A stretch of DNA of 64,000 bases from an uncultured Acinetobacter sp. (GTDB taxonomy: Bacteria; Pseudomonadota; Gammaproteobacteria; Pseudomonadales; Moraxellaceae). Location: NCBI RefSeq assembly GCF_947626835.1, contig NZ_CANQTS010000003.1:62001-126000 (forward strand), written 5' to 3'. The notes below the pieces were generated by a model. That model did not search any database, was not told the DNA's origin, and saw only the letters and a program-made list of their open reading frames with translations. Of this stretch, positions 18,386-42,369 are shown piece by piece (within the stretch, counting starts at the first letter, position 1; each line of letters begins with the position of its first letter). The position numbers and the translations under genes are program-made.

Positions 18386-18457
18386 CTACCAATCCATCAT
18401 CGGCGCCACACTGATTCGCGGAGATTGAGTGTTTTCAATGTTTTTTGGATTAGTCAT
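18386..18457 (-). pseudogene. dusA: dusA 5' fragment (junction of element A and element B)
   Basis: Minus-strand reading frame MTNPKNIENTQSPRISVAPM then MDW and a TAG stop. RISVAPMMDWT is the start of tRNA-dihydrouridine synthase A. This copy was brought by the left end of element B as a replacement 5' end for dusA, and is now cut off from the dusA body by element A. It differs from the chromosomal start at 42304-42369 mainly at synonymous positions over PRISVAPMMDW. Not in the ORF track because of its length (23 codons). Confidence 0.85.
18389..18400. other. Attachment core, left end of element B (dusA att)
   Basis: CCAATCCATCAT (ATGATGGATTGG on the dusA strand) is identical to 42313-42324. 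Sequence diverges to the left of this core, and conserved dusA codons with wobble changes continue to its right. It is the expected recombination core for dusA-targeting integrases. Confidence 0.82.
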
Positions 18458-18538
18458 TAAAAATCATGCCTTTAATCTGTATTCGCAATCTGAGCGAGTC
18501 TGTGTGAACCTATGTTTAGGTGGGTTAATCTATTTGCA

Positions 18539-18587
18539 TTTACACCAAATTTTACACCATAATCAAAAAAACAATTTGTGGTGTAAA
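18539..18587. repeat. Direct and inverted TTTACACC repeats between att core and integrase
   Basis: TTTACACCA at 18539-18547 and 18551-18559, and its reverse complement TGGTGTAAA at 18579-18587, just ahead of the integrase start. A matching pair (TTTACTCC and TTTACACC) lies near the other end of element B at 42235-42253. They probably are arm-type integrase sites and may also let the integrase regulate its own promoter. Confidence 0.6.
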
Positions 18588-18589
18588 TT

Positions 18590-19738
18590 ATGGGATCAAT
18601 TACAACAAGGAAAGGTGCAGATGGTAAAGTTAACTATCGTGCTGCGATCCGAATCAATCGCAAGGGCTTTCCTACTTTTTCTGAAAGTAAAACATTTCAC
18701 TCAAAGAAATTAGCTGAAAACTGGGTTAAGAAACGAGAAGTCGAAATTCAAGAAAATCCTGATATTTTGCTTGGCAAAGAAAAGCTGATTGATCTGACCT
18801 TATCTGATGCCATAGATAAATATTTGGATGAAGTCGGGAGCGAGTACGGAAGGACGAAACGCTATTCTCTGCTCTTAATCAAGAAGCTGCCAATCGCGCG
18901 CAATATTATCACAAAAATAAAATCAGTACATTTAGCCGAGCATGTTGCTTTAAGGAAAGGGGGAGTCCCTCATCTCGAACTTGAGCCTATTGCGACTAGT
19001 ACGCAGCAACATGAGCTTTTACATATTCGTGGTGTACTTTCCCATGCTGCTGTTATGTGGGAAATGGATATTGATTTAAATGGTTTTGATAAGGCTACGG
19101 CACAGTTAAGAAAAACACGTCAAATATCCTCCAGTCAGAAAAGAGACCGACTCCCTTCAACGGATGAACTGATTGCATTAACGAAATATTTTACAGAACG
19201 ATGGAAGCTAAACCGTTATGGTACTAAGTATCCAATGCATTTGATTATGTGGTTTGCAATTTTCTCATGCAGACGTGAAGCCGAATTAACACGGCTTTAT
19301 CTGCGAGACTATGATTCACATCATTCTACGTGGAAAGTACATGATCTAAAGAATCCTAATGGCTCTAAAGGCAATCATAAGTCTTTTGATGTACTTGATC
19401 CTTGTAAGGAAATGATTAAAAGACTAAAGCATTCAGAAGTTCGCGAACGGATGCTAAAGCTTGGACATGATGAAAATTTACTATTACCCTTAAATCCTAA
19501 AAGTTTAGGCAAAGAGTTTAGAGAGGCTTGCAAGATACTAGGGATTGAGGACTTGCGGTTTCATGATTTAAGACATGAAGGTTGTACCCGATTAGCTGAA
19601 CAGAGTCTTACAATTCCTGAAATTCAAAAAGTGAGCCTACATGATTCTTGGAGTAGCTTACAGCGCTATGTATCGGTAAAGGCGAGAAGAAATATTATTC
19701 AGTTGGAGGAAGTGCTACATCTCATTGATGAAACGTAG
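18590..19738 (+). CDS. int: Tyrosine recombinase, dusA-type island integrase
   Basis: 382 aa. Catalyses integration and excision of element B at dusA. Catalytic residues are visible: Arg in FSCRREAELTRL, the second His-x-x-Arg in HDLRHEGCTRLAEQ, and the C-terminal His and Tyr in SLHDSWSSLQRYVSV. The N-terminal part has an Arm-like DNA-binding region (ITTRKGADGKVNYRAAIRIN) typical of phage integrases, followed by a SAM-like core-binding domain. It lies 190 bases from the attachment core, directed into the element. Its end overlaps the convergent PrtN-like gene by 17 bases. The dusA target assignment follows from the flanking fragments. Confidence 0.9.
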   Translation: MGSITTRKGADGKVNYRAAIRINRKGFPTFSESKTFHSKKLAENWVKKREVEIQENPDILLGKEKLIDLTLSDAIDKYLDEVGSEYGRTKRYSLLLIKKLPIARNIITKIKSVHLAEHVALRKGGVPHLELEPIATSTQQHELLHIRGVLSHAAVMWEMDIDLNGFDKATAQLRKTRQISSSQKRDRLPSTDELIALTKYFTERWKLNRYGTKYPMHLIMWFAIFSCRREAELTRLYLRDYDSHHSTWKVHDLKNPNGSKGNHKSFDVLDPCKEMIKRLKHSEVRERMLKLGHDENLLLPLNPKSLGKEFREACKILGIEDLRFHDLRHEGCTRLAEQSLTIPEIQKVSLHDSWSSLQRYVSVKARRNIIQLEEVLHLIDET

Positions 19739-19997
19739 CATAGTCTTTAGATGCTTCTGAGTATTTTCTGTCTAAAATATCTGCTAGATCTTTTACGTGT
19801 ACTAAAAATGGTGCACGTTTGCTCTGATCTATTTTAAATACAGAGAAAGGAAATTCTTGATTATTCGCCTTTCTCAATGCTTCAGCTTTACTAAGATGAG
19901 GATAATAGTCAGAAACTATAGTCATCAGTTCTACAGTCATAGAGCGATATTTCATAAATAAGTAATCGGATGTAGAAATTTTTAAAGATATATTCAT
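19722..19997 (-). CDS. PrtN-family (pyocin activator-like) regulator, possible excisionase
   Basis: 91 aa, convergent with the integrase. SDYYPHLSKAEALRKANNQE followed by FSVFKIDQSKRAPFLVHVKD and LADILDRKYSEA matches the PrtN pattern (DYF.hl....fLRK...gei.lP..r.e.sQK....vhl.DLA.yiD...). PrtN activates pyocin genes in Pseudomonas. Members next to integrases in genomic islands may act as regulators or recombination directionality factors; that role here is inferred from position only. Confidence 0.75.
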   Translation of the reverse strand: MNISLKISTSDYLFMKYRSMTVELMTIVSDYYPHLSKAEALRKANNQEFPFSVFKIDQSKRAPFLVHVKDLADILDRKYSEASKDYATFHQ

Positions 19998-20124
19998 GAT
20001 TAAAATCTAACAGTTATCTCGATGAATTCAGTTTAGTATCCCGAAAATAGTAAAGGTAGAGTATTACTTCTGTTTAAAAATATATTAGTATTATGCTAAT
20101 TAAATATTTGTATTATAATGATTT

Positions 20125-21006
20125 ATGAGTGATAAAAAATTATCAGACCTTGGCCTGCTTGAACAGGATATATGGTTCAACTTTTGCTACTACTATGAGT
20201 GTGATCTGGATGATGTGTCAATAGTAAGCGAGAATCAAACATATATTGATAAAAAAGAAAAAATCATAAAAAGAATGCAGCAGAATGATTTTTCAGTTAA
20301 TGAGGAGAGAATTTCTTTTGCTGAAATGATGGGGAGTGATTTGAATATTCCCTTCAAACCATCTCAGCTCGCTGAGCTTTTAACACAGCTTAATACATTA
20401 AGGGTTAAGGTAAATAACTTGCCTGCCAAAATTTTCCATAGGCAATATTCAGATATTTTAATTGCTTATGTGCAAATGCTTGGTGGATTGGAGTTTATTC
20501 AGAACCGTACACTTGCCAAAAGTGCAAAGGCAATCATTGCAGTCAAAGCTCGTTACGACAAGCATTTATACCCAAGACGTGAAATTATATATCGTATTTT
20601 ACGGGAACAAGTGGCACGTCATGGTAAATGGAAGACTCTAAATCAAGCAGTTAATTTTGTGCTTGATGATCTGGTCAAAGCTTTTGAGGTTTACGATATT
20701 GAATGGCTTCAGTCTGAACTTGTGCTTAAGCAAAAAATGCTCAGTGAATTAGAGCAGGAGAGTAAGCAGTTGTATGCTAAAGCTCAGTCAGATGGCGTGC
20801 GAAGAAAGCCAGCATCAATTGTGAAGAAAATAGAAAAATTACAGCTGGAACTTAACAATCTTAATCAGATACTGAAGGCAAAATATCCCTCTAAAGAGAT
20901 AGAAAAGTTTGGGTATAAGATGCCTTACAGTGGTGGATACATTGCTGAAACCATCATTCATGAGCTCCGAACCCAGCCTATGATCCTGTCGGAAATAATA
21001 CTTTAA
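20125..21006 (+). CDS. Unrecognised protein with helical/coiled-coil C-terminus
   Basis: 293 aa. I do not recognise a family. The N-terminus (LGLLEQDIWFNFCYYYECDL) is aromatic-rich. The middle contains IFHRQYSDILIAYVQMLGGL and a basic patch (KHLYPRREIIYRILREQVAR). Residues 195-260 form a coiled coil (LKQKMLSELEQESKQLYAKA; KKIEKLQLELNNLNQILKAK). It is the first plus-strand gene inside element B after the integrase, is preceded by an AT-rich promoter-like region, and ends at the base before the 3' end of the convergent gene. It may be a replication or DNA-binding accessory, but this is a guess. Confidence 0.65.
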   Translation: MSDKKLSDLGLLEQDIWFNFCYYYECDLDDVSIVSENQTYIDKKEKIIKRMQQNDFSVNEERISFAEMMGSDLNIPFKPSQLAELLTQLNTLRVKVNNLPAKIFHRQYSDILIAYVQMLGGLEFIQNRTLAKSAKAIIAVKARYDKHLYPRREIIYRILREQVARHGKWKTLNQAVNFVLDDLVKAFEVYDIEWLQSELVLKQKMLSELEQESKQLYAKAQSDGVRRKPASIVKKIEKLQLELNNLNQILKAKYPSKEIEKFGYKMPYSGGYIAETIIHELRTQPMILSEIIL

Positions 21007-22055: not shown

Positions 22056-22137
22056 AATCCGAATATTAATAGTAGTGCCTTTTGCTTTCTAGTCGCCTTT
22101 AGTGCCTATAGCTGTGGATAAAAATGGGGGAAATAGA

Positions 22138-23829
22138 GTGAATTCATCTAAATCTAAGGTCTCACTATTTTTGCTGATTCATGACTATTCACCGATCACT
22201 TTAAGTCCTCAAGCAAGGTGGCTACTGCTTAAACTCACAGCTGAGTTCAGAATAGGAGACGCCATTGCATCCATAAAAAATATGGCGAAGATATTTCATA
22301 TCAATGAAAAAAAAATTAAGGAATGTATTGCTGAGTTGGTAGACCATGGAATTTTAATCCAAGGAATAGATGGGCTAACTTCTGACAAAAAGAGTTATAT
22401 CGATTACGACCTATTCTTAGGCTGTATGAATGCAAAAAAAATTAAACCACTAACACTGGATAGATGGTTTCATCAAACAGCAAGAGCAGATAATTTTCCT
22501 CTTATAGGGCTTTTTCAACATCTCGTTGAAAACAGACTAGATGATTTTTATATGCATCATTTGCAACATACGTCATCTAGATTGTCAGGGATCTTGGATT
22601 TTAAGTCTGCTTTAGTGCTCATGGTATTGGTTAGAAATAGTAATCAATTTGGAGTTATCAATCAGTGCGGAATCCACAAAATAAAGCACAAAACAGGTAT
22701 GTCTAAAGACACCATTTTTAGATGCATCAAAACGCTAGAAATTCATGGTGTGATTAGAATACGAGTTGATGGTGTGCTTTCCAGTAAAATTATAAGAGTG
22801 TCTAATCCATTTTATATGCTGAATTTATCACATGAAATCTGGCAGGAAAAAGCAACTTATGGACGGTATTTCATAATTCAATATCCAGAACCACACTCCT
22901 TTGAGGTGCAGCAGGTTGCAAGTTTACTGCAATTTTTAGAGAGCAAAAAAGCTACGTTAACAAGGATTTTAACGATTAACGATGCTTATCAGGTTTTTGT
23001 AAATCTTTTCACAAGAATGCCAGACTTGATCGCTGCTACAAAGGGATTGACGATTGAGATGGTTAAGGAGGATTCTTCAATACCTGAACATGAACGGTTT
23101 GAATATCGATTTATAATACATCTGTTGTCACTTTTTCTTGAGATGCCAAATGATCATGATAGCAGTCAATGGCTTAGAGATTTAATTGAGTTTTTCCCAC
23201 AAAAAAATTCAAAGACACATTTGAAGGGGGGAATTTCTTTATTAGGATTTCTTCAGTGCCATTTAGAACAATGGTGTGCCCAGATTTACAATGATCTGTC
23301 TAGAGCTCAGGCATTATCTAGAGGTGGAGATTCTGTAGATTTACATGATTTGAAAAAGATGGCAGATCGATTGCGATTGAATACTTTGTTGAAATTTGCT
23401 GAAGATGATCCATTTGAAACATCTGATCGTATTGCTCGGAGTAACAGTAATCTTTTATCAATGTTAGGTCTGATGATGACCTTGATCGCGAAGAATCAGC
23501 TTTATCCATTTTTAACGTATTTAGGCTTAAAAGAACAATTCAGTCAATTTTGTATTGTTCCACGTCATGCGAAGCAAACACAATATATTTGTATTTTTAT
23601 GCCATTTCCAAGTCAAATCTTGAATCAATTTACCAAAATTACTTTAGATAAAAACCTTGCATTTGTATCTAAGCAAGCACTTTTTCAGGATGAAAGGCGT
23701 AATCATTTTTTTAGTGAATCCATTCAACCGAGCCTCAAAGAACTACAGGATTTTGGCTTGCTGCCTGAGAACTGCCTAGCTTTAGATCATTTTGCTATTT
23801 CTAGAAATAAGATCAAAACTAAGGCGTAA
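22138..23829 (+). CDS. Unrecognised protein with two winged-helix-like domains
   Basis: 563 aa from GTG 22138 (GGGGGAAATAGA upstream); GTG 22102 is the alternative. Residues 20-85 (SPQARWLLLKLTAEFRIGDA; IASIKNMAKIFHINEKKIKE; ELVDHGIL) and residues 150-220 (KHKTGMSKDTIFRCIKTLEI; HGVIRIRVDG) look like helix-turn-helix or winged-helix units. The second has the 'is..Tv.r.i..Le..Gvi' rhythm of GntR/MarR or replication-initiator wings. The C-terminal 330 residues are helical and unassigned. It could be a replication initiator or a transcription regulator of the island. The first is suggested by the nearby initiator-like gene, with no direct evidence. Confidence 0.65.
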   Translation: MNSSKSKVSLFLLIHDYSPITLSPQARWLLLKLTAEFRIGDAIASIKNMAKIFHINEKKIKECIAELVDHGILIQGIDGLTSDKKSYIDYDLFLGCMNAKKIKPLTLDRWFHQTARADNFPLIGLFQHLVENRLDDFYMHHLQHTSSRLSGILDFKSALVLMVLVRNSNQFGVINQCGIHKIKHKTGMSKDTIFRCIKTLEIHGVIRIRVDGVLSSKIIRVSNPFYMLNLSHEIWQEKATYGRYFIIQYPEPHSFEVQQVASLLQFLESKKATLTRILTINDAYQVFVNLFTRMPDLIAATKGLTIEMVKEDSSIPEHERFEYRFIIHLLSLFLEMPNDHDSSQWLRDLIEFFPQKNSKTHLKGGISLLGFLQCHLEQWCAQIYNDLSRAQALSRGGDSVDLHDLKKMADRLRLNTLLKFAEDDPFETSDRIARSNSNLLSMLGLMMTLIAKNQLYPFLTYLGLKEQFSQFCIVPRHAKQTQYICIFMPFPSQILNQFTKITLDKNLAFVSKQALFQDERRNHFFSESIQPSLKELQDFGLLPENCLALDHFAISRNKIKTKA

Positions 23830-24214
23830 CTTTAGCTTCTGCAACATTCCCATATTTTCGTTGTTCTCGCTGTATGGGGCTGCGGTGTAATGGTTAGATC
23901 AGATAACAGGTAATATATATTATTAACTACAAGAGTAATATATAAATAATATATTAAACATAAACAATATCTTATCTAGTCATGTGAGTACTGTGATTCA
24001 CTTAGCACAGTATAGACCATACTCAAATGGGCTATAGACAACGTATCAATATCATATTCCTAAAACATGCAGGACTAACCCTATAGTATGTTCCAAAGTC
24101 TTCAAGCATATTCAGCTAAGCAGGATGACCATAACATCCTGCTTTAGAATCATGATCAATAAAATTTTACATCTCTCACTTAGATATGAACCTTATGTTT
24201 CAGTGAGAACCTAA
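23830..24214. other. Non-coding AT-rich gap with inverted repeat, possible origin region
   Basis: 385 bases without a credible ORF. It contains an AT-only cluster (GTAATATATATTATTAAC and AGTAATATATAAATAATATA) and a perfect inverted repeat AGCAGGATG-ACCATAA-CATCCTGCT at 24119-24143, directly upstream of the Gp2/YagK-YfjJ initiator-like gene. Rolling-circle double-strand origins often place a hairpin beside the initiator, so this is a candidate origin; a terminator for the 22138 gene is the alternative, although the T run is short. Confidence 0.45.
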
Positions 24215-25174
24215 ATGTACCAAAATGTTCAATTTCAATATAATCCATATGATCAGCTTTATCATGAAGCAGAAGTGCTGGCAGGAGTAGACCATTTCAT
24301 TCAAGAGGTTTGCTTAGGTGGTTATGATCTATATCATCAAAACCTGATGATAGACCTACAAAAATTAGTTCAGTCGTTTAAGCCAATCTACAATGCAGAT
24401 TTTTCCTATTGCAATTCAGTACTGATATTCATTGATGTTGTGAAGATCATTGATTACACACTCAGCCTAATGCCACAGGCAAATTATGAATCTATAGTCT
24501 GTTTTGATGAAATGACAGTCTGGCATATTCTGACATACATCCAGTCATTATCAGGCTGTATCCAACAGCAACTAATTGAACATCAACAACGTGAGTTAAA
24601 GAATCAACAGAGCCTTTTTGATTATGCATCTGCATTGATTCACCATTATGCGAGAACATTGGTTGTTCGAGTAGATTTATCTATCAAGAAAGAATATCAA
24701 GCCTTATACAATATTCAAGCATTTAACCAAGCCTTAGAAGTATTGCATCGGCGTATCGCAGATCAGGATACTTGCTTTAGTGGTTTACATGGTTATGCAT
24801 GGGCATTAGAGCATGGCATAAGCAAAGGCTACCATTGTCATCTCTTGCTTATGTACGATGGGAATATACATCAACAAGGTTTTAAGATGGGGCAGTGGGT
24901 TGGTGAGTGCTGGGAGCAGATTACACATGGATGTGGTTATATTTTTAACTGTAACCATCCCGACTATATGGATACATATGAAGCGATGGGGACATTAGGA
25001 ATAGGCATGATTCATCGTCATGATGAAAATAAACTTAATAATTTTCTTAATTACGTTGTTCCTTATCTGGTGAATGCTGAAAAAGAACAGCAGCATCCAA
25101 GGGTTAAGGATGAACCAAATATGCGTAGTTTTGGCAAGGGGCAGATCAATGCGAAAAACCGAAGAGGTTTATAA
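24215..25174 (+). CDS. Inovirus Gp2 / YagK-YfjJ-like protein, putative rolling-circle initiator
   Basis: 319 aa. The C-terminal half matches the inovirus Gp2/YagK-YfjJ family. It shows RTLVVRVDLSIKKEY (motif 1-like), then GYHCHLLLMYDG, an H-x-H of the HUH type, followed by MGQWVGECWEQITHGCGYIF. The tyrosine-bearing helix LNNFLNYVVPYLVNAEKEQ provides Y-x-x-x-Y. The ending MRSFGKGQINAKNRRGL is also family-like. Members are thought to start rolling-circle replication of filamentous phages or satellites. The N-terminal 130 residues are not recognised. Preceded by the hairpin-containing gap. Suggests that element B replicates autonomously when excised. Confidence 0.78.
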   Translation: MYQNVQFQYNPYDQLYHEAEVLAGVDHFIQEVCLGGYDLYHQNLMIDLQKLVQSFKPIYNADFSYCNSVLIFIDVVKIIDYTLSLMPQANYESIVCFDEMTVWHILTYIQSLSGCIQQQLIEHQQRELKNQQSLFDYASALIHHYARTLVVRVDLSIKKEYQALYNIQAFNQALEVLHRRIADQDTCFSGLHGYAWALEHGISKGYHCHLLLMYDGNIHQQGFKMGQWVGECWEQITHGCGYIFNCNHPDYMDTYEAMGTLGIGMIHRHDENKLNNFLNYVVPYLVNAEKEQQHPRVKDEPNMRSFGKGQINAKNRRGL

Positions 25175-25349: not shown

Positions 25350-26273
25350 TTAAGTCTTAATCAAGCTAGTTTGTGAATTCATATAGGTGATTCTTTCTTT
25401 CGCAGGCTTTTCAAGTAACTCTACATGTATTGAATATTGGATCAAGTTTTTTGCAGGTAGTCTGATTTTCTCAAAAAATGGAACTTGTTCTTGCTTTATC
25501 CGAAACTCTTTCAAACCATTGTTAATCTCATTGAGATAATTACGATACTGACTCATCAAGCCTAAATATTGGCGATGGCTATCTTCAATCAAGACTTGAG
25601 AAAACTCATTTTGATTTAGGCGATGTGAAAGAATAAATTCTAGATGCATTCCGATAGGTAATATTTCCATCATTTGTTGGATAAATTGCATAATTAGCTC
25701 AACATGTTGCGGTGAACTAATTTTTTGGGATTGTACTAGACTTAGTAGGTTTCCAATAAAGGAGATTAAATGGTTTTTAAGCTGTATAGAGGATGATAAA
25801 GTATTATTGGCTAACTGATTAATATCTGTAAGCGGGGTTCTGCTGTCTAGTAACAGTTTAAAAGTCTGTAATAAAGCTAAATACTCGCTCGTTTTGTCTG
25901 TATAAAATAAAATGTTTTGTTCTCTGATATCCTGAGAAACCTTCAAGACGCACTGTTGTACAGCCTCAATTTTTTTACTTAAAATTTGAGTTTGGATTAC
26001 CATCGCTACCATTAACGTCGCAGTAGAAATAGCTTGAGCTGCAACAATCGTGGTTTGCAATGCAGATTGCAAAGAACCTAATCCTTGAACAAAAGTTTCA
26101 ACACCTACAGAGCTGACCTCTTTTAAAGGAATATGTTGAATAATACCTACATGTTCGAGACCCTTTTTCCAGTAGGCAACTCCATCTCTAAAAATCACCT
26201 GATCATTTGCTATAGCTTCTAAAAGTTCTTTTGAAAATTTTTCAATGTCGTAACTAAATACTTTATCTAACAT
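25350..26273 (-). CDS. Unrecognised membrane-associated helical protein, partner of YaaW-like gene
   Basis: 307 aa. A hydrophobic segment at residues 70-100 (TTIVAAQAISTATLMVAMVI) is followed by coiled-coil sequence (LSKKIEAVQQCVLKVSQDIR). The remainder is helical with no known motif. It starts nine bases after the YaaW-like gene on the same strand, so the two probably form an operon and act together, perhaps at the membrane. I do not recognise a family. The 176-base gap on its 3' side holds the hairpin of the Gp2-like gene and nothing else visible. Confidence 0.65.
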   Translation of the reverse strand: MLDKVFSYDIEKFSKELLEAIANDQVIFRDGVAYWKKGLEHVGIIQHIPLKEVSSVGVETFVQGLGSLQSALQTTIVAAQAISTATLMVAMVIQTQILSKKIEAVQQCVLKVSQDIREQNILFYTDKTSEYLALLQTFKLLLDSRTPLTDINQLANNTLSSSIQLKNHLISFIGNLLSLVQSQKISSPQHVELIMQFIQQMMEILPIGMHLEFILSHRLNQNEFSQVLIEDSHRQYLGLMSQYRNYLNEINNGLKEFRIKQEQVPFFEKIRLPAKNLIQYSIHVELLEKPAKERITYMNSQTSLIKT

Positions 26274-26282
26274 GCTGATACC

Positions 26283-27002
26283 TTAGAACTCATTGTAGTC
26301 ATTTTTATTTTCTTCATGCTTAATCCTCATCATCGCAACAATACAAGCAGCAGGTATCGTAACGCGATAAGCGGGAGCTGTAATATCTTTTGCAGTTAAA
26401 GGTAATGTGGCGGCTGCCACGAATGGATTTACCTTGATGAAATTCTTAGCCATATTTAATCCAGCTAAAAGTCCACCAGCTGTACTTGAAGCAGTTCCAC
26501 CACCAAGACTATTTTTAATCGTTTTGAGAGGGCTTTCTTTAATTGAGGTTAGTCCTAAGTACCCTTTTTCTTTCAATTTCTTATTGATGAAATCCAGATC
26601 ATTAAGTTGAGTGATTCGACCAAAAAGGGTTCTTAGTATTTTTTCTTCAAGAAGATTGATATCAGAAGTATCTTTATGGAAATCTACACCTGTTTTTTTT
26701 GCAACATCTTCTAGTAGTTCGCGATACACAACCCCTTTTCCTCTGACAAGGTTGACTACTGTATCTCCGCCAAATAGTTGAATTTCAGCAGCAATCGCTT
26801 TCCAGCTATTTTTATATAAATCGTCTTCAGTTGAGTACATGCTCATGTTTTTAACAAGTGTGCTTTTAAGCCTCCCTGTCCATTGTTCTGTACCTTCACT
26901 ATCAGCGATTAAAGTGTTTGACAATAATTTAAGATCTTGAACATCACAATGTTGTAGAAATGCTAGATCAGGATCTTCGCGAAATTTTGCTTCTGTTGCC
27001 AT
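26283..27002 (-). CDS. YaaW-like protein (DUF3944 / UPF0174)
   Basis: 239 aa, the same size as E. coli YaaW. The N-terminus REDPDLAFLQHCDVQDLKLL is the DUF3944 signature ('DpDL.fL..c...dL..L...L'). WKAIAAEIQLFGGDTVVNL, RGKGVVYRELLEDVAKKTGV and LLEEKILRTLFGRI match the body of the family. A glycine/serine segment (NSLGGGTASSTAGGLLAGL) precedes a hydrophobic C-terminus (VTIPAACIVAMMRI). The biochemical function of the family is not known to me. First gene of a two-gene operon; AT-rich promoter region to its right. Confidence 0.82.
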   Translation of the reverse strand: MATEAKFREDPDLAFLQHCDVQDLKLLSNTLIADSEGTEQWTGRLKSTLVKNMSMYSTEDDLYKNSWKAIAAEIQLFGGDTVVNLVRGKGVVYRELLEDVAKKTGVDFHKDTSDINLLEEKILRTLFGRITQLNDLDFINKKLKEKGYLGLTSIKESPLKTIKNSLGGGTASSTAGGLLAGLNMAKNFIKVNPFVAAATLPLTAKDITAPAYRVTIPAACIVAMMRIKHEENKNDYNEF

Positions 27003-28878: not shown

Positions 28879-29922
28879 ATGGCACATCAACTTGAACAAA
28901 TGGCTTATGTCGGTGAAACCCCTTGGCATGGACTAGGGAATCAACTGAGTCAAAACCAACCAATTGAAATCTGGGCACAACAGGCAGGTATGGACTGGCG
29001 TATCGAGTCATCCAATGTCAGTTATATGGCACAGAATGAACGTGGGCAAAGCATCATCATGCCGTATGAAGAACAGCGTGTACTTTACCGTTCTGATACC
29101 CATGCACCGTTGTCAGTCGTTAGCCAACGTTTTCAGGAAGTCCAACCTCGTGAGATCTTAGAGTTCTATCGTGATTTAACTGAACAATCAGGCTTTGAGC
29201 TGGAAACCGCAGGTGTGCTTAAAGGCGGCAAGAAATTTTGGGCATTGGCACGGACAGGGCAAAGTTCAGCACTCAAAGGAAAGGATGTCAGTAATGGCTA
29301 TATTCTTCTTGCAACTGCATGTGACGGTACGCTTGCGACAACCGCACAATTCACTTCCATCCGTGTCGTCTGTAACAATACTTTAGCGATTGCTTTACGT
29401 GGACAGAACAGTAGTGCAGGTGTAGTGAAAGTTCCGCATAGCACCAAGTTTGATGCAGATAAGATCAAACAGCAATTGGGTATTTCAGTTCGTGCATGGG
29501 ATGAACACATGTATGAGATGAAGCAGCTCAGTCAGCGTAAAGTCACCCAGTCTGAAGCCGCAGCCTATTTTGATGCGGTATTTAATAACACCACAATGAG
29601 TATTGCAGATCAGGAAGAAAATATTATTCAGTTCTACCGTGATGTTGCAACTCAGGCAGCACAGGCAAATGCCAAGGAGAAAGCTGAGCCAAATGCCAAG
29701 GCGATGACTAAAGCAATGGACATGTTTAATGGTCAGGGACGAGGTGCAACACTTTCATCATCTAAGGACACGGCTTACGGATTACTCTGTTCAATTACGG
29801 AATTTATTGACCACGAGCGTCGTGCCATGAGTACAGATCATCGACTCGATTCAGCTTGGTTTGGTGCAGGAGCAGCGATCAAGCAACGTGGACTAGAACA
29901 GGCTTTACGCATGGTGTCATAG
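28879..29922 (+). CDS. DUF932 phage/plasmid-like protein (TIGR03299)
   Basis: 347 aa. MAHQLEQMAYVGETPWHGLG is the typical start of the DUF932/TIGR03299 family, followed by YRSDTHAPLSVVSQRFQEVQ and the ATTAQFTSIRVVCNNTLAIA core, all family hallmarks. Found on plasmids, ICEs and phages, usually beside recombination genes; the molecular role is not established to my knowledge. Here it is first in a DUF932, YqaJ, Gp3-like series. GGAAT precedes the ATG. Confidence 0.88.
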   Translation: MAHQLEQMAYVGETPWHGLGNQLSQNQPIEIWAQQAGMDWRIESSNVSYMAQNERGQSIIMPYEEQRVLYRSDTHAPLSVVSQRFQEVQPREILEFYRDLTEQSGFELETAGVLKGGKKFWALARTGQSSALKGKDVSNGYILLATACDGTLATTAQFTSIRVVCNNTLAIALRGQNSSAGVVKVPHSTKFDADKIKQQLGISVRAWDEHMYEMKQLSQRKVTQSEAAAYFDAVFNNTTMSIADQEENIIQFYRDVATQAAQANAKEKAEPNAKAMTKAMDMFNGQGRGATLSSSKDTAYGLLCSITEFIDHERRAMSTDHRLDSAWFGAGAAIKQRGLEQALRMVS

Positions 29923-29924
29923 TG

Positions 29925-29986
29925 TGGAAAGTTAAGTTTTTGCAATGGAAAGTTAGACCTATCCTTTAGATTCTAATAGATTCTAA
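29925..29986. repeat. Short direct repeats in DUF932-YqaJ gap
   Basis: TGGAAAGTTA occurs at 29925-29934 and 29946-29955. TAGATTCTAA occurs as two tandem copies at 29967-29986, each nearly self-complementary. Possible operator for the YqaJ transcript. Confidence 0.45.
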
Positions 29987-30014
29987 AGATAAATTTACAT
30001 TTTAAAAATAATTA

Positions 30015-30041
30015 AACCACATCTTCGGGTGTGGTTTTTTT
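30015..30041 (+). terminator. Terminator/attenuator hairpin upstream of YqaJ gene
   Basis: AACCACA-TCTTCGGG-TGTGGTT with T run, then TATGCCC. It lies 47 bases before the YqaJ start and could be a leader attenuator. The track start GTG 30031 falls within the hairpin and is therefore rejected. Confidence 0.75.
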
Positions 30042-30087: not shown

Positions 30088-31128
30088 ATGAATACAGCAA
30101 TATTAAACCCATCCATTCAACAAGGGAGTACACCCTTTGTTGCTCCAAAATTGTTTACAGCGAAACGCTTGGTCAATACCAAAAATATGACTCAATCTGA
30201 CTGGCTTGAAGTCAGACGACAAGGCATTGGCAGTAGTGATTGTGCAGCAGCCTGTGGATTGAATCCCTATATGTCGATGCTCGAACTTTGGATGATCAAG
30301 ACAGGGCGAGTCAAACAATCGATTGAGGATGAAAGTTCAGGTATCGCTCCACTCTATTGGGGCAAGCAGCTAGAGCCATTGGTGGCTGAGTACTACAGCA
30401 TGCATACCAATAACAAGGTACGCAGAATCAATGCAGTGCTTCAGCATCCAGATCCTGATAAACATTTTATGCTTGCCAATCTAGACTACTCCGTTGTGGG
30501 TAGCGATGAAGTCCAAATTCTGGAATGCAAAACAGCAGGTGAGTACGGCGCAAAACTTTGGCGAGATGGCGTGCCTTTATATGTCTTGTGTCAGGTACAA
30601 CATCAATTGGCAGTAACAGGAAAACGAGCAGCACATGTTTGTGTGCTGATCTGTGGGCATGAAACCAAAATCTTCGAAGTGACGCGCTCTGAATCCGTGA
30701 TCCAGCATATCATCAATGCAGAACGTTACTTCTGGGAGTGTGTGGAAAAAGACACACCGCCTGATGTGGATGCCAGTGAATCGGCAGCTAAAGCTATCCA
30801 GCAACTCTATCCACAACATATTCCGTTGACTGTTGAAGACTTGAGTTATAACGAACAAGCCAATCAATTGTTTGCTCAACTGATTCAAGAAAAGCATCAC
30901 ATTGAACAGCATCAAAACAACTTTGATGAAACTAAGCATCAAATCCAGATGTTGATGAGGGATGCTGAACGAGCGACCTTTGCCAATGGTTCGGTGACGT
31001 GGAAGAAATCCAAAGATTCAATCAGTTTAGACAGTAAAGCCTTACTCAAACTTCATCCTGAAATGCTTGAACAGTTTCCACAAAGTAAAGCAGGGACGCG
31101 ACGTTTTCAGATCTATACCGATGACTGA
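30088..31128 (+). CDS. YqaJ-family (lambda exonuclease-like) viral recombinase nuclease
   Basis: 346 aa from ATG 30088 (AGGAAGCAAGG upstream). 5'-3' exonuclease of the PD-(D/E)XK fold used with a single-strand annealing protein. Visible motifs are RRQGIGSSDCAAACGLNPYM (family start), LANLDYSVV (catalytic Asp), ILECKTAGEYG (Glu-x-Lys) and CQVQHQLAVTG (helix with conserved Gln). The C-terminal part contains FANGSVTWKKSKDSISLDSK, typical of the family tail. It is in series with DUF932 and Gp3-like genes, a module seen in ICEs and plasmids. No separate annealing protein is visible. Confidence 0.88.
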   Translation: MNTAILNPSIQQGSTPFVAPKLFTAKRLVNTKNMTQSDWLEVRRQGIGSSDCAAACGLNPYMSMLELWMIKTGRVKQSIEDESSGIAPLYWGKQLEPLVAEYYSMHTNNKVRRINAVLQHPDPDKHFMLANLDYSVVGSDEVQILECKTAGEYGAKLWRDGVPLYVLCQVQHQLAVTGKRAAHVCVLICGHETKIFEVTRSESVIQHIINAERYFWECVEKDTPPDVDASESAAKAIQQLYPQHIPLTVEDLSYNEQANQLFAQLIQEKHHIEQHQNNFDETKHQIQMLMRDAERATFANGSVTWKKSKDSISLDSKALLKLHPEMLEQFPQSKAGTRRFQIYTDD

Positions 31129-31166
31129 ATTCATCACATCGATATTTCTAATCATCCAAAAGCGCA

Positions 31167-31225
31167 AAAAACCACCCCGATCCACCGACTCCCGAAGGAG
31201 CGGTGGACTAATAATGGCGGTCTTT
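31167..31225 (+). promoter_or_regulatory. Structured leader before Gp3-like gene
   Basis: Inner stem CCACCG(A)CTCC-CGAA-GGAGCGGTGG (31182-31206) is almost perfect. Outer arms AAAAACCACC (31167) and GGCGGTCTTT (31216) can pair with two mismatches. There is no long T run. Possibly a leader RNA or site acting on the 31311 gene. Confidence 0.5.
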
Positions 31226-31310
31226 GCATTTCATCTGATCTTTAAACGGTTTTGTATTTGCTTACATAACAAAGGGTCAACAGTAAAATTTTATTTAGAG
31301 GAAAACTAAC

Positions 31311-32207
31311 ATGATTAAAGGCTTAGCGATTACACCACCGATCCTTGGACGTATCAGTATCGGTAAAGTTGTTGAAAAGAACGGTAAACGTCTACCTGAA
31401 AAAGATGATCAATTTACCATTACTAGTCAAATTCAAAGTAAGGAGGGATGGGTTAAACATCCGCTTGATGAACAACTCCGAGCCAAAGCACCGAATCAAA
31501 AACTCCGTACCATTCCAGTACGGATGATCTTCAATGATCCAGAACTGAATCTAAGGGCAGAGTACACCTTATTTGATCGACAAACAGGAAGGCCTGTTTG
31601 TGTAGGCAATGGTGAAACCTGCCAGCGCCTCACCAATCAAGGCGTAGAACAACATTCCTGCCCATCCCCTGATTTATGTCCTTTAGCTCAAGGAGGCAAT
31701 TGCAAGCCCTATGGTCGACTGCATGTTAATTTAGATGAGTCGGATGAATTTGGCACATTCATTTTTAGAACCACAGGCTTTAATAGCATACGCACGTTAG
31801 CAGCTCGACTGAGTTACTACCATGCAGCATCGAATGGTCTGCTGTCATGCCTACCACTCCAACTGATATTGCGAGGTAAAAGTACAACACAGAGTTTTCG
31901 TCAACCTGTGTACTATGTGGATTTAACATTAAGGGATGGAGTCAGTTTGCAAGAAGCTATTCAAACTGCGAAAGAGCTGGATGAACAGATGCGGCAGACT
32001 GGATTTAGCCAGAAAGATTTAGATCAAGTGGCAAGAGAGGGTTTTGCAAATGGACAGTTTGAAATCGATGTAGAGGAGGGGCCTGAGGTGGTGGAAGAGT
32101 TTTATGTAGAGGATAGTCAACAGCAAGATCAGCAACAAGTCCATTACCTCAGTAATGTACAGGATATTCATCAGGGCTTGAAGCAGAGTGTCAGGGCTGT
32201 GAATTAA
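31311..32207 (+). CDS. Gp3-like / 'metal-binding' protein of recombination module
   Basis: 298 aa. ILGRISIGKVVEKNGKRLPE, a cysteine cluster (VCVGNGETCQRL, SCPSPDLCPL, NCKPYGRLHVNL) and FIFRTTGFNSIRTLAARLSY match a family found on ICEs, often labelled hydrolase or metal-binding protein. I see the same overall layout in phiC31 Gp3-like recombination directionality factors. The cysteines probably bind zinc. No serine integrase is visible here, so a directionality role for it is doubtful; association with YqaJ favours DNA recombination. The C-terminal 60 residues are acidic and Gln-rich (EDSQQQDQQQVH). Confidence 0.7.
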   Translation: MIKGLAITPPILGRISIGKVVEKNGKRLPEKDDQFTITSQIQSKEGWVKHPLDEQLRAKAPNQKLRTIPVRMIFNDPELNLRAEYTLFDRQTGRPVCVGNGETCQRLTNQGVEQHSCPSPDLCPLAQGGNCKPYGRLHVNLDESDEFGTFIFRTTGFNSIRTLAARLSYYHAASNGLLSCLPLQLILRGKSTTQSFRQPVYYVDLTLRDGVSLQEAIQTAKELDEQMRQTGFSQKDLDQVAREGFANGQFEIDVEEGPEVVEEFYVEDSQQQDQQQVHYLSNVQDIHQGLKQSVRAVN

Positions 32208-33082: not shown

Positions 33083-33656
33083 TTTTAGACTCCATCAATT
33101 TAACACTATAATGAGTATAACAAAGAATAACGACTCAGAGCTGAACATGCACTCTATGGTACATCATTGTCTTTCTGCAATCGTATCCCTTTGATCAGCA
33201 TTTTCCTTATTATGGTAAAACGCTTTCGATTGATTTGGATGAACCAACCGATAGCGTCACTGTCTTGGTACGGATTATCTTATCTTTGATAAAGAAAGTA
33301 AAAATGATATGTCGGAAAGAGATGGATCTACAAACAAATATTAATTGATAGGGAAGAAGTTGAAGCGAGATACCTATGCAGTTTGAATTATGATTTTTTG
33401 AATAAAATCTGATCATTTGTGAAGTTCCAACTATTTCAAACACTTGTGCATAAATTAGGGAAGAAGCCTATTAGGAAGGTTTTAAATTAAAAAGTTACAT
33501 GTCTAGATCCAGAGAGGAGTCCAAATTATGTTATTTCGTGGCTAGGATAGTTGGAACTGTCAATATATAGTAATTGAGACTGTTCATATATGTGATCATG
33601 TTAAATATAATGTAAGTATATTTATGTAATTTAAATTATTTTTGAGGGGCGTAGTG
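33083..33656. other. Non-coding region between Fic module and McrB-like gene
   Basis: About 570 bases with no convincing gene. An open stretch on the plus strand near 33190-33340 reads YPFDQHFPYYGKTLSIDLDE and has no start codon; it may be a decayed fragment. The minus-strand 77-aa ORF (33210-33443) is the shadow of that stretch. AT-rich sequence in the last 100 bases probably holds the promoter of the McrB-like gene. Confidence 0.5.
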
Positions 33657-36275
33657 ATGCGATTAATAGTACATGGACTGAAAACATCTAATACAAATAA
33701 TGATACAAATAATGATCGAGTTAGTGGCTATGTTGTTCCTATCGCCTATGAAAATGATGATATGACAATTACTTATACTAACCCCAGTGATTTTCCTAAT
33801 AATAATCGTATCTGGATAAGTAGTGGATTTCCATACATTGAGAATAGCTTTCCTAGTGATAAAATTTTTTATTTGAATTCACATTATGATGGGTATGAGA
33901 ATGATAATAGTTCTAATGAAATATTAAATGATCCAACCAAGTGCAGATATTTTTCTTTAGGTAAACATGCATCCACAATTTCATCTGATTATAGACAAAT
34001 TTATAAATTACCAGCATTGCCAGATGTTCAAACAGGACGTTTAGACTCTTATGAAGTATCTTTCTTATCCAGTGTTGTTCATCCATTTTTTGCTTTGGTT
34101 GGGGATTATGTTTATGGACCATTTCAAATCAAAAAAAATAAAATAAATGAAGATGAGCATATTATTTTTGAAACTGTAGATACTAAAACTCCTCTTGATC
34201 TTAAAAGTAATCATATTGCTAAATTCGCTTTAAATGATTTAAATGAACAAAAAATTTTACTTAAAGTTGAATCGCATGGTTTAAATGCTATGTATATTAC
34301 GAGTTTGCATATCTTAAAATCATCTGTTCCATTTGAAACCATAGACTACATCTCTGATAGTAAATTAATTCAATATTATCAAAACTTGGACTTTGCGAAA
34401 GATGATTCGATATCTAAAAGTCAAGCAAAGAACTTGAGCGCATCTATACAGCGTTACCTTTATAACAACGCAGTAGAACATCCAGAGCGTATATCACGTT
34501 TACAAATGGTATTAGATCAATTCCTTAATAAGGAAGATCAAGAGTTTGCCCTTATAAAACAATATTTTGATTCAGAACAAGGACATACATTTCTTAATGA
34601 GTTTTTAAGCAAGCATAAAGACAATATTTTAAAAGATCATATAAAGGTTTTAAAAAAAGAAAATGATTATATAGTAGAAGAACTTAGAGCTAAATATCAA
34701 AATCAAATTGAAGATTTAAAGAAAAAATATACTGATGAAAAACTGGATATTGATAATAATATTGCCCAACTTAGACAGGATTTTGAAAAACAGAAAGAGT
34801 CTATTAAAGAGCAAAGTGAAGAAATACATAATTCAAAATTGAATGAGGAGTTGGAGTACTTACAGACTCAGATTGCTTTAAAAACTAAAGAGTTAAACAA
34901 TATCTCTAGTCTTGTAGATTTAGAACAAAAAATTACTCAGAAACAGGGGGTTTTAGATCATGTTCAAGGTCAAATAAATTCAAAGCAAGGTGAGTTAAAT
35001 AAATTTGAACAAATGGTTAATCAGCAGAGAACTTTACTTCAAAATCCACACCAATTAAGTGATAAAGCGGTAGAGTTTGCTACTTTACGCTCTATCATGA
35101 CTGGGGCAAATAATATAAAAGAAGAAATTTATGAGCCTGTAAAACTAACTCCAGCCGCCTATCAAGTCACAGGTGAAACAAGAATATCCTATATTAATTA
35201 TTTACAAAGACATATTAATCAAAGAGATGGTAGAAAATTGTCGTATAACGAAACTGCTAACTTTATGACCACCGTTATGCAGACTTACTTGACGATCTTT
35301 AGTGGACTACCTGGTGTCGGTAAAACTTCTACTGTTCATCATTTTGCTGATGCTCTTGGAATTAAGGGACCTATAGAGAATAAAGCTAACTTTTTGAATG
35401 TTGCAGTAGCGCGTGGGTGGACATCAAGCAAGGATTTGCTAGGTAATAAAAATGCACTTCGGATGAGTTATGAAGAGGGGCGCACAGGCATCTACAGTAT
35501 GCTGAAAGCATTAGAATATGCTAAGAGTAGTGGCAAGGACGATATTATTAATCATCAAATGCTGAGTATCATTCTCTTAGATGAAGCAAATCTCTCCCCA
35601 ATAGAACATTACTGGTCAGATTTTCTTTCTATATGTGATACTTTCCATGAAGGTAAAAAGTTAAATCTTGGAGGAAAGAGTAATACATTTACCCTCGATT
35701 TACCGCCAAGTTTAAGATTCATTGCTACCATCAATACGGATGCTACGGTAGAACCATTATCAGATCGTTTACTTGATCGTGCTAGTGTCATTACGCTAAC
35801 AAATGAGAATAATAACTTGGATAATTTATCTCTAGATGATTTAGGGTTTAACGGTACCGTTCCTTATCAGGAATTAGCCGAAGCATTTATGATAAGTCGC
35901 GAACAAACGCTTAAATTACAGAATTCTGGCAAGCTGGAATTAGAGAGGAATGCATTAGCAAAGATTAGACATGCTTTAGAATCTGATGCAAGAAGTGCAC
36001 ATCCAGTTTATATCTCTAATCGTAAAATGAATGCGATTTATAATTATTGTGCCGTAGCAAACCAATTAGCTTTTGAAAATGATGTTCCCCCTTTAGATTT
36101 TGCTATAGCTCAACATGTTATTCCTAAAATCAGAGGATATGGTAAAGACTTTAAAGAACGTTTAATAGACCTAGATAAAGTTTGTCGAGAGTATAGGCTG
36201 TCACGATCAAATCAGTTAGTTAAACAAATTCTCGATAATGGTTCAGAGTTCGCTGACACTTTTTCTTTGCTCTAA
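33657..36275 (+). CDS. McrB-like AAA+ NTPase with coiled coil
   Basis: 872 aa from ATG 33657; GAGGGG lies eight bases upstream. The AAA+ domain (about residues 540-800) has Walker A GLPGVGKTSTVHHFADA, Walker B SIILLDEANLSPIEHYWSDF, and sensor/second region FIATINTDATVEPLSDRLLD, with TINTDA in the place of the McrB MNTAD signature. N-terminal 200 residues are beta-rich with VGDYVYGPFQI, a GYF-like contact motif. Residues 320-480 are a coiled coil (KKENDYIVEELRAKYQNQIE). The adjacent downstream gene is a McrC/DUF2357 nuclease, so the pair is a type IV-like restriction system. Nucleotide preference (GTP or ATP) cannot be read from the sequence. Confidence 0.82.
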   Translation: MRLIVHGLKTSNTNNDTNNDRVSGYVVPIAYENDDMTITYTNPSDFPNNNRIWISSGFPYIENSFPSDKIFYLNSHYDGYENDNSSNEILNDPTKCRYFSLGKHASTISSDYRQIYKLPALPDVQTGRLDSYEVSFLSSVVHPFFALVGDYVYGPFQIKKNKINEDEHIIFETVDTKTPLDLKSNHIAKFALNDLNEQKILLKVESHGLNAMYITSLHILKSSVPFETIDYISDSKLIQYYQNLDFAKDDSISKSQAKNLSASIQRYLYNNAVEHPERISRLQMVLDQFLNKEDQEFALIKQYFDSEQGHTFLNEFLSKHKDNILKDHIKVLKKENDYIVEELRAKYQNQIEDLKKKYTDEKLDIDNNIAQLRQDFEKQKESIKEQSEEIHNSKLNEELEYLQTQIALKTKELNNISSLVDLEQKITQKQGVLDHVQGQINSKQGELNKFEQMVNQQRTLLQNPHQLSDKAVEFATLRSIMTGANNIKEEIYEPVKLTPAAYQVTGETRISYINYLQRHINQRDGRKLSYNETANFMTTVMQTYLTIFSGLPGVGKTSTVHHFADALGIKGPIENKANFLNVAVARGWTSSKDLLGNKNALRMSYEEGRTGIYSMLKALEYAKSSGKDDIINHQMLSIILLDEANLSPIEHYWSDFLSICDTFHEGKKLNLGGKSNTFTLDLPPSLRFIATINTDATVEPLSDRLLDRASVITLTNENNNLDNLSLDDLGFNGTVPYQELAEAFMISREQTLKLQNSGKLELERNALAKIRHALESDARSAHPVYISNRKMNAIYNYCAVANQLAFENDVPPLDFAIAQHVIPKIRGYGKDFKERLIDLDKVCREYRLSRSNQLVKQILDNGSEFADTFSLL

Positions 36276-36300
36276 TGTTTTTAAGGGAATAAATGATTGT

Positions 36301-38508
36301 ATGAAAGTATCCGTTGAGGTTATTGCTGGACGTAATAAAGGTCAAGTACTCGACCTGATGCAATCTCCATCCAATAATATGCCATACATATTATGTGAAG
36401 ATGATGTTTTAGTCTTCAGGGTGCAGACTAGTGAGGAGCGTCCTAACCTACATCTCAATTTACATGAAACGTTTATTCCCTTTTTTCAAAAATCAGAGCT
36501 ATGCAAAGATCAACCATATTACGAATATATTTGCGAACCAAAAAAGATTAAGAATAGTTGGAGGTATCAAGCACTTTTTCATAATTTTTGCGGTATAGCA
36601 GAGCTGATCATTGCAGATTACATAGACCTTGGTTTTGATAATTTTGAAATTAAAAATGCTCAATATTTGCACCCGATTGAAATATTAGCACGTAAAATTA
36701 ATGCTGATCGTATCAGTGCAATGCTAGATTTCTTAGGTCGAAATGATGGCAGTGATCTCGCAGCTCTCGCACGTATGACACGAAAATATTCGGGCTTTCA
36801 AGAAGGCGATAAAACAATCACTTATACCTTAGATAGTGTAGAGCGATATATTTTGTCACTTGAAGATTTATTGCCAAAGATTACCCAGCATCCTATTGTT
36901 AAACTAGTACAAGTTAATCGTCTGAATTCTTATAAAGATTCTTCTCAGCTCACTGAAGATTCAATCAACTATTTGATCAATACAACTGAAGACATATATG
37001 AGGTTTTAGATGAAGAAGATAGTCTATTTTCTATAGATGATCGCTATTTCGCTGTTGATAAAGTATTGGAAGCGGAAATCGTTGAAGAGTGTGATCTTTA
37101 TGAAAACGAAGTTCTACATGGTTTTATACATATATTAATTCAATCATTAGAACAGATTATAAAGGGTTTAAAACAAAAGTGCACGAAAGATGAAAGAAGA
37201 GATATCTCAGGTTATGAATCTCTTTTTAATAAAATTGATAAGTTTAAAGAAAAGTTAAATCGACCAGTGATTGAACGTTGCAATCATTTTATTTCTCGAC
37301 TTTTTTTCTTTAAAAGGCTTCTCATTAATAGAATTAATGTAAAAAAACCTTATTTGCGAGAGCCTATTTTTACTCATAAAGCAAAGCATAATCTTTATTA
37401 TCGTCAGGTCTTTTTGATGATGATTGAATGGGTGAGATTTGGTAAACCAGACTGGAGCTTACAAAATCAACTAAATTCAATTGAAAATTTACCTAAGTTA
37501 TTTGAATATTACCTGTTCTGTCTTGTTAAGGAGCATGTCCTGAATTATAGCTTACAATTCAGAGATGCTCTCACAGAAACACTTCTAGATGGATCGAGTT
37601 ATGATCGGTTCGTTTTTAAACTTAGTGAAGAGGTAAAAGCAGAACTGTTATATGAACCAAATATCTATACTTCTGATCGTAATTCACTTAATGCTAAGGA
37701 TAGGGTTTTAGCTTCTTATAGAAATACAGAGGCGTGGAATAGAAAGAACAATTCTAACAACGCACATGTGGATAAAAATACACCTAACCATAGTTTTCAA
37801 CTGCGCCAAAATTCAGAAAATACTAAAAAAAGGTTGTATCGGAGATCCCCTGATATTGTCTTGCGTATGTATACATCAAATCATGAGTCACTACTTATGT
37901 TGGATGCCAAATACATGACCTCAGAAAAAGCTTTCCATGAGGCAATGCGTGACTGCATGATTAAATATTTGCATGGCATCCATTTTGCTGCAACTGGAGA
38001 AAACAAGACTATTGGCTTAATGATAGTTAATCCTGATGAACAAGATGTTACACACCATTTTCATCATGATGAATATACAATCTTTGGTTCTATGCCAGTG
38101 ACGCCATGTGTCATGACTGCATCGATCGATATTTCTAAAGCACATCATCTCGGTTCAACTATTCAACGTAATATATTTCGTATTATGGAAATGATGGTAG
38201 AAAAGGTCAGTAATGTGGGGTTAGGTGAGATGAAAACAGATGTGCACGAATTATATAAAACAAAAGAAAACTTTATATCTCAATCACAAGATGAAGTGTT
38301 GAGTGAAAATAAAGAAATAAAATATCATGAGATTGAACTTAAAAAGCCAAAAACCAATGAGAAGAAAGTGAAGAAATCGACTCCGATTGTAAAGCAATCG
38401 TTAGCAGTTGGTCCACTTTTCAAGAATAATCCTACATCGATCAAGAATGAACAACCAAGTCATATTGATTTACTGAAAAAGCTGAAACATCGTGGTCGGA
38501 ATAATTAA
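36301..38508 (+). CDS. McrC-like DUF2357 / PD-(D/E)XK nuclease
   Basis: 735 aa from ATG 36301; the track start overlaps the upstream gene. The nuclease core near residues 515-570 has RRSPDIVLRMY (Asp), LLMLDAKYMTSEKAFH (D-x-K), and the following helix EAMRDCMIKYLHGIHFA, in the order of the McrC/DUF2357 PD-(D/E)XK fold. Upstream is an alpha-helical arm (LDSVERYILSLEDLLPKITQ) as in DUF2357 proteins. It starts 25 bases after the McrB-like stop and so is co-transcribed. The last 90 residues are a Lys-rich disordered tail. With the McrB-like AAA+ protein it should form the translocating nuclease of the restriction pair. Confidence 0.8.
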   Translation: MKVSVEVIAGRNKGQVLDLMQSPSNNMPYILCEDDVLVFRVQTSEERPNLHLNLHETFIPFFQKSELCKDQPYYEYICEPKKIKNSWRYQALFHNFCGIAELIIADYIDLGFDNFEIKNAQYLHPIEILARKINADRISAMLDFLGRNDGSDLAALARMTRKYSGFQEGDKTITYTLDSVERYILSLEDLLPKITQHPIVKLVQVNRLNSYKDSSQLTEDSINYLINTTEDIYEVLDEEDSLFSIDDRYFAVDKVLEAEIVEECDLYENEVLHGFIHILIQSLEQIIKGLKQKCTKDERRDISGYESLFNKIDKFKEKLNRPVIERCNHFISRLFFFKRLLINRINVKKPYLREPIFTHKAKHNLYYRQVFLMMIEWVRFGKPDWSLQNQLNSIENLPKLFEYYLFCLVKEHVLNYSLQFRDALTETLLDGSSYDRFVFKLSEEVKAELLYEPNIYTSDRNSLNAKDRVLASYRNTEAWNRKNNSNNAHVDKNTPNHSFQLRQNSENTKKRLYRRSPDIVLRMYTSNHESLLMLDAKYMTSEKAFHEAMRDCMIKYLHGIHFAATGENKTIGLMIVNPDEQDVTHHFHHDEYTIFGSMPVTPCVMTASIDISKAHHLGSTIQRNIFRIMEMMVEKVSNVGLGEMKTDVHELYKTKENFISQSQDEVLSENKEIKYHEIELKKPKTNEKKVKKSTPIVKQSLAVGPLFKNNPTSIKNEQPSHIDLLKKLKHRGRNN

Positions 38509-41790: not shown

Positions 41791-42053
41791 CTGCAGTAGA
41801 TGGATTGAATGTTGTAGAGCAAGGCAATAAATGCGGGCTTGGATAATGCCGGGTTGTGCAGAGTTTGTCTGCCATCGAGAAGGCGAATCCATTTAGATAC
41901 GAGATTTGCATTCAGGCCATACTGTAAAGCGACTGAGGCGATTGAAGTGTTGGGTTCTTTACAGGCTTGAACAATACTATTTTTAAATTCAGCACTGTAT
42001 GTTCTTCGCTTTTTGGAAGCAGATCCGGTTGATACATGAATATTTGTGGTCAT
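41751..42053 (-). pseudogene. IS66-family TnpA-like fragment
   Basis: N-terminal KKRRTYSAEFKNSIVQACKE and TSIASVALQYGLNANLVSKW is the helix-turn-helix of the IS66 accessory transposase TnpA. After IRLLDGRQ the similarity stops and the frame runs into unrelated sequence adjacent to the DUF3268 remnant. No TnpB or TnpC follows, so this is a relic of an insertion sequence. A short hairpin CCACTTA-AAAG-TAAGTGG (42065-42082) lies just outside its start. Confidence 0.75.
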
Positions 42054-42064
42054 AAATTAAGTCC

Positions 42065-42082
42065 CCACTTAAAAGTAAGTGG
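42065..42082. repeat. Inverted repeat beside IS66 fragment
   Basis: CCACTTA-AAAG-TAAGTGG, perfect 7-bp arms. Possibly part of the terminal region of the lost insertion sequence; no matching end is visible on the other side. Confidence 0.4.
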
Positions 42083-42234
42083 TGAATAGCCATCAAAATT
42101 CTAGACACACATAACCATCTGTTTGATCAGTTAGCTATAGAAGAGACGGCTCACAGGACTTTTTTATCATTTTCTACCCGCCTTATAATTTAAATTGAAT
42201 ATTTTATAACCGATCATCAAGCCACTAACTTAAT

Positions 42235-42253
42235 TTTACTCCAAATTTACACC
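42235..42253. repeat. Arm-type-like repeats at the right end of element B
   Basis: TTTACTCC (42235-42242) and TTTACACC (42246-42253), 60-78 bases from the core, mirror TTTACACCAAATTTTACACC at the left end (18539-18558). Confidence 0.6.
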
Positions 42254-42303
42254 CTATATATTAGTAAGCTATTTAAGTATTTGAAATATAAATATTATTA
42301 TTT

Positions 42304-42369
42304 TTATGATGTCCAATCCATCATGGGGGCGACCGAAATACGAGGCTGTAAAGCTTGCAGATGAGACAT
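42304..42369 (-). pseudogene. dusA: dusA 5' end left at the chromosomal junction
   Basis: Minus-strand frame MSHLQALQPRISVAPMMDWT then S and stop. This is the original start of tRNA-dihydrouridine synthase A. The reading frame runs into element B after ATGATGGATTGG and stops two codons later, so this copy is not functional. It lies 66 bases downstream of the MFS gene on the same strand, with GTATAAT between them, so the native dusA promoter is also stranded here. The rest of dusA must lie left of the window. Confidence 0.88.
42313..42324. other. Attachment core, right end of element B (dusA att)
   Basis: CCAATCCATCAT, identical to 18389-18400. Element B sequence lies on its left and native dusA codons on its right, so this marks the chromosome-element boundary. 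Confidence 0.82.

Follow-up and report, generated by a model that had tools for sequence, protein, structure and literature searches.

Tandem integrative elements at the 5′ end of dusA in an uncultured Acinetobacter and the presumed arm octamers of their integrases

The use of dusA as an integration target, replacement of its start by the incoming element, circular excision and a 21-bp att site have been published (PMC4482086; also PMC6070778), and excision of dusA elements is documented in PMC4482086, PMC8409611 and PMC6070778. Elements stacked at this gene are likewise on record: IEVpaBan1a and IEVpaBan1b lie in tandem at dusA in Vibrio parahaemolyticus (PMC8409611). RdfN, of the PF11112 family, is required for excision of a Vibrio dusA element (PMC8409611). 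A preliminary description of the DNA analyzed here had called dusA an integration hotspot, which was already in print (PMC4482086, PMC8409611).

We analyzed a 64,000-nucleotide stretch of an uncultured Acinetobacter genome (the window, C3:62001-126000; positions without the contig prefix C3 are those of the window). Very probably, two complete and distinct dusA-specific integrative elements, designated A and B, were inserted successively at one site in the 5′ end of dusA. Their tandem insertion is a known type of event, the site, the start replacement and one tandem case being published already. The locus offers a clear-cut natural example in which two complete elements share one att site, with both integrases, both recombination directionality factors (RDFs) and both arm sets intact, and it makes testable which element leaves when core sites are identical.

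Three core sites, the dusA starts and the empty site

The order at the locus is dusA body, core, A, core, B, core, original dusA start and MFS gene. A and B each have a single integrase and a single RdfN-like factor, and a set of arm-like octamers of their own. The features that define this arrangement are as follows.

C3:47820-80389, plus strand: element A, a prophage of 32,569 bp; its right part is window 1..18388, and the left end, which holds its integrase and RDF, is beyond the window
18389..18409, plus strand: middle att site, core CCAATCCATCAT followed by CGGCGCCAC; right end of A and left end of B
18389..42324 (C3:80389-104313), plus strand: element B, an integrative island of 23,924 bp core to core, with its own integrase, RDF and arm octamers at both ends
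42313..42333, plus strand: right att site, core CCAATCCATCAT followed by GGGGGCGAC; right end of B
18389..18457, minus strand: stranded dusA start brought by B; 18457-18389 reads MTNPKNIENTQSPRISVAPMMDW, then a stop; homologous starts occur in other dusA elements
42313..42369, minus strand: original chromosomal dusA start, stranded; 42369-42313 reads MSHLQALQPRISVAPMMDW, then T, S and a stop
42436..43623, minus strand: MFS transporter gene (PF07690), right of the last core here and directly adjoining dusA in L009, L014, L015, L134 and L135; dusA's chromosomal neighbour before insertion

The core CCAATCCATCAT was found at 18389-18400 and 42313-42324 in one orientation, with no other match in the window when up to one mismatch was allowed. 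These copies are the identical 12-base core noted earlier at both dusA starts, whose minus-strand coordinates and translations also proved right when re-read. With 0.48 matches expected by chance in the window at up to one mismatch, two copies taken alone are unremarkable. The extended pattern CCAATCCATCATnGGnGC (core plus nGGnGC) occurred three times in the whole genome, always on contig C3 and on one strand (C3:47820; C3:80389, window 18389; C3:104313, window 42313), and its reversed control did not occur, which ruled out the cores as chance repeats. All three sites carry the semiconserved 21-bp unit CCAATCCATCATnGGnGCnAC, equal in length to the published dusA att sites (PMC4482086). The third core, at C3:47820, lies 14 kb left of the window within an intact dusA gene (C3:46866-47891, minus strand; 341 codons, beginning MTDLKQNTGISRLPRISVAPMMDWTTKDYR), where the best DusA-family match of the genome also falls (C3:46938-47849, minus strand; 461.7 bits versus a cut-off of 397.2).

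The genome is a draft of 54 contigs and a lone 12-mer can arise by chance, so the middle core might be imagined to be a chance match or an assembly join within a single insertion. This is scarcely credible: all three sites lie within one 182-kb contig, the middle site has the full 21-bp pattern and a complete dusA start, and A's arm pair stands to its left, with B's arm set and integrase to its right.

We joined the outer flanks, taking 700 bases to the left of the first core, a single core and 1500 bases to the right of the last one, and compared them with the empty site of L134, a close relative like L135 (dusA identity, 97% and 96%, respectively). The two aligned without gaps at 2066/2212 identical positions (93.4%), so the right start (42369-42313), which is also nearly identical to the intact dusA start in the L134 empty site, is the original chromosomal one. 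Each dusA element here supplies a new dusA start; the middle start (18457-18389) came with B, and the start in use by the working dusA came with A.

These results support the preliminary reading of an island B and an adjoining prophage in the 5′ end of dusA with the functional gene farther left, given the three cores, the intact dusA and the empty site. The dusA body and third core for which that description proposed looking left of the prophage are both present, and the comparison that it proposed with insertion-free relatives gave the empty site beside the MFS gene. Its 24-kb island bounded by dusA cores and its prophage ending just left of the first core agree with the limits of B and with the end of A at the first core in the window. 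The stranded starts that it placed at 18386 and 42304 both exist, but they differ in origin, one coming from B and the other being chromosomal.

Integrases and arm-like octamers

The recombination genes of B and the octamers within the window are listed below.

18590..19738, plus strand: integrase of B, a dusA-associated tyrosine recombinase of 382 aa (PF00589; clade I of the integrase tree)
19722..19997, minus strand: RdfN/PrtN-like RDF of B, 91 aa (PF11112, E 4.7e-15, above cut-off)
18311-18318 and 18322-18329, plus strand: two TTGCAACT octamers, presumed integrase A arm sites, at -78 and -67 from A's right core
18539..18587, plus strand: three TTTACACC octamers, presumed integrase B arm sites on the integrase side, direct at 18539 and 18551 and inverted at 18580 (+150, +162 and +191)
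42235..42253, plus strand: TTTACTCC (42235; -78, one mismatch) and TTTACACC (42246; -67), presumed integrase B arm sites at the far end

The integrases of A (394 aa) and B (382 aa) are 38% identical, the catalytic R, HxxR, H and Y are conserved in both when aligned, and the integrases of relatives adjoin dusA. As the preliminary description had it, an integrase lies just right of the first core in the window; the gene begins about 190 bp beyond it. Right behind it and convergent with it is the PF11112 gene of B. A search of the whole genome for PF11112 returned one gene in A (C3:51336-51554), one in B (C3:81752-81973) and no others, giving one predicted RdfN/PrtN-type directionality factor per element.

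An attP site of the lambda type combines a core common with the chromosome and separate short arm repeats on both sides. Compared with that arrangement, the presumed arm repeats of the two co-resident elements differ here while their core is identical. Counted from the core at the left end of A, copies of TTGCAACT stand at +130 and +139 and an inverted one at +181; a further copy, at +151, has one mismatch. A and B have different octamers (TTGCAACT versus TTTACACC) in a like layout around the common core: -78/-67 on one side and, on the other, about +130 to +162 for direct copies and about +180 to +191 for inverted ones.

We examined A and B together with 41 more dusA elements from the genus (43 elements) at both ends, built an integrase tree, read the octamer of each clade from left ends and then sought it in right ends and in shuffles. 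In clade I, TTTACACC was present in 19/23 right ends (null mean, 0.23), and in clade II, TTTACGCC was present in 12/12 (null mean, 0.04). Clade III had TTGCAACT in 2/3 right ends and clade IV had TTTGCACC in 3/3; two singletons had TTGCAACC. The octamer tracks the integrase clade across the 43 elements, and its right-end occurrence is far above that in shuffles, a comparison that is supportive and not blind, since the octamers were picked after viewing words common to both ends. Apart from these motifs, gapped alignment finds B's right end and those of its clade no more than 58-65% alike. The arm code has exceptions: the exact octamer is absent from G031 and from four clade I right ends, and nine clade II right ends carry one TTTACACC besides their own motif, so there is some overlap in motif between clades I and II. 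H66, AH2 and BcepMigl, free phages of Pseudomonas and Burkholderia whose attP is uncut in the records, have similar repeats both near the start of the integrase gene and some 67-79 bp to the left of the core; in phage RHph_Y3_1 the region upstream of the integrase showed no core and no arm repeats.

On the reading of successive insertion, each integrase joins the attP of its own element to the conserved core in dusA, and the element exchanges the dusA start for its own, leaving dusA readable. A usable core is rebuilt beside the dusA body and can serve as the target for the next element. That the octamers are integrase arm sites is suggested by where they lie, by their repetition and by their covariation with the integrase clade. 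With the octamers as arm-binding sites, each integrase would act on its own element despite the common core, and both elements may still excise; common core and private arms together would explain the independence of stacked elements. We lean towards the general form of this proposal, that dusA-associated integrases have a clade-specific private arm octamer at fixed offsets which lets elements with the same core stack and excise independently. If so, integrase and arm sequence would be linked in the dusA integrase family by a code that can be read, and the octamers amount to a prediction for dusA elements across the genus. Arm sites are not mentioned in PMC4482086 or PMC8409611, and a literature search in which few subscription papers were reachable gave no other candidate; the private arm octamers of A and B are the part that we could not find described.

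The same data bear on whether A and B form a single 56-kb composite that moves whole between the outer cores and has a pseudo-site inside it. Recombination between the outer cores, which are compatible, would release A and B together, but A and B are separately equipped with an integrase, an RDF and arm octamers at either end, the two sets meeting at the middle core, and B-type and A-type elements occur alone at dusA elsewhere. We regard such a composite as highly improbable.

The octamers at window 18539-18587 and those at L008 3950-4008 sit between divergent dusA and integrase starts, and integrase binding there might also affect dusA transcription. A search for a promoter of the new dusA start gave no consensus signal above shuffles or background; one weak promoter-like match in B, not above shuffles, overlaps the inverted octamer.

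Gene content of the two elements

Within the window, A encodes a portal, head protease, major head protein, connectors, tape measure and tail-tip protein. Left of the window are its integrase, PF11112 gene, primase, and small and large terminase, and A also encodes a CII-like regulator. By this gene content, A looks like a complete siphophage-type prophage.

The principal cargo and backbone genes of B are these.

22102..25174, plus strand: replication-like genes, one HTH/replication-initiation-like (22102-23829, weak match) and one YagK/YfjJ (24215-25174)
25350..27002, minus strand: JukB (25350-26273) and JukA (26283-27002), an anti-jumbo-phage defence pair (PADLOC, E 7.2e-66 and 7.6e-85)
28879..32207, plus strand: DUF932, YqaJ/RecE-like exonuclease and Gp3-like genes, the island backbone
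33642..38508, plus strand: AAA+ protein (877 aa) with a nuclease-like protein (756 aa), a pair whose motifs are McrBC-like

The PADLOC JukA and JukB models span nearly the full length of both B proteins, and the JukA sensor with its neighbouring JukB effector is predicted to be a Juk defence system. Five other genomes of the genus have a JukA 96-97% identical to that of B; in G021 it lies inside a dusA element (C9:100800, between cores at 66555 and 109350), indicating that the JukAB pair travels on such islands. The AAA+ protein of the second unit matched PADLOC PDC-M26A (E 6.2e-23) and has a long coiled coil; its partner looks like a PD-(D/E)xK nuclease, and the motifs GLPGVGKTS (Walker A) and PD...LDAKY were read by eye in the pair. 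A full-length pair in G050 (L123) is 53-57% identical, and the unit looks McrBC-like. These anti-phage genes stand on an island directly beside a prophage. B also encodes a Fic protein.

Window 38611-41521 holds a two-gene unit (249 and 716 aa) kept as a pair in G044, G053 and G054 (L129-L131). Neither protein had a family match, and the pair is possibly an uncharacterised defence or cargo module. Small ORFs at 41603-42053, just inside the right end of B, matched a transposase HTH (PF01527) and a zinc-finger-like family (PF11672) and are probably insertion-sequence remnants. PDB sequence searches with two B cargo proteins gave no match.

The Gp3-like gene (PF18897, window 31311-32207) is present in 116/176 genomes of the genus, often in several copies, at about 75-86% identity; by position, about 19 of the dusA elements located by the core search of these genomes contain it, and it also occurs outside dusA. 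This spread makes B a member of a widespread island family. No phage structural genes were found among the B genes scanned, and B adjoins a prophage, as it might if it were a satellite needing A for packaging. We consider this very unlikely, because many genomes have a B-type island but no A-type prophage and the common target site accounts for the adjacency.

Stacking in the genus, order of arrival and relation to known systems

Exact cores numbered one in 123 of the 176 genomes, two in 50, three in the present genome only and none in 2. A one-mismatch search with inspection revealed stacked remnants in G012, G065, G067, G082 and G098; in all but the last, the integrase is intact in the element next to dusA and the outer element is decayed. 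The two sites of G065 and of G082 are on different contigs, and there we infer adjacency. In G092 a search allowing one mismatch gives three matches, but no dusA start follows the C46 copy, which was left out of the count. Given five more stacked loci from remnants, we make no strong claim that a deficit of tandems signals exclusion.

The intact inner and decayed outer elements of the four genomes fit entry beside the dusA body, and by analogy with these loci B may be the older element here, with A arriving after it. The same tandem could have formed with A first and B entering at its right-hand core, since the 12 core bases are identical at all sites and either junction could be the target. 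That order is possible but unlikely: decay affects the element farther from dusA in those genomes, albeit in four cases only, a weak sample, and this decay pattern is expected if newcomers enter beside the dusA body, where selection on dusA preserves the core.

Successive insertion of A and B at dusA resembles the islands and prophages of Farrugia et al. 2015 (PMC4482086) in the insertion at the dusA 5′ end, the 21-bp semiconserved att site, the integrase beside dusA, and the new dusA start given by the element with the original start left at the far end. It differs from them in that two intact elements stand in tandem and in the arm octamers, of which there is no mention there. Like IEVpaBan1a and IEVpaBan1b (PMC8409611), A and B are two distinct dusA elements in tandem with their own integrases, and the second Vibrio element has an RdfN homologue; the Vibrio pair is SGI1-like and mobilizable, whereas the present pair is a prophage and a defence island in Acinetobacter with unrelated cargo. 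IMEVchUSA3 with its RdfN (PMC8409611) shares the integrase, the PF11112-type RDF and the new dusA start, and it also has a new promoter; unlike IMEVchUSA3, B has no IncC-dependent transfer genes among the genes scanned.
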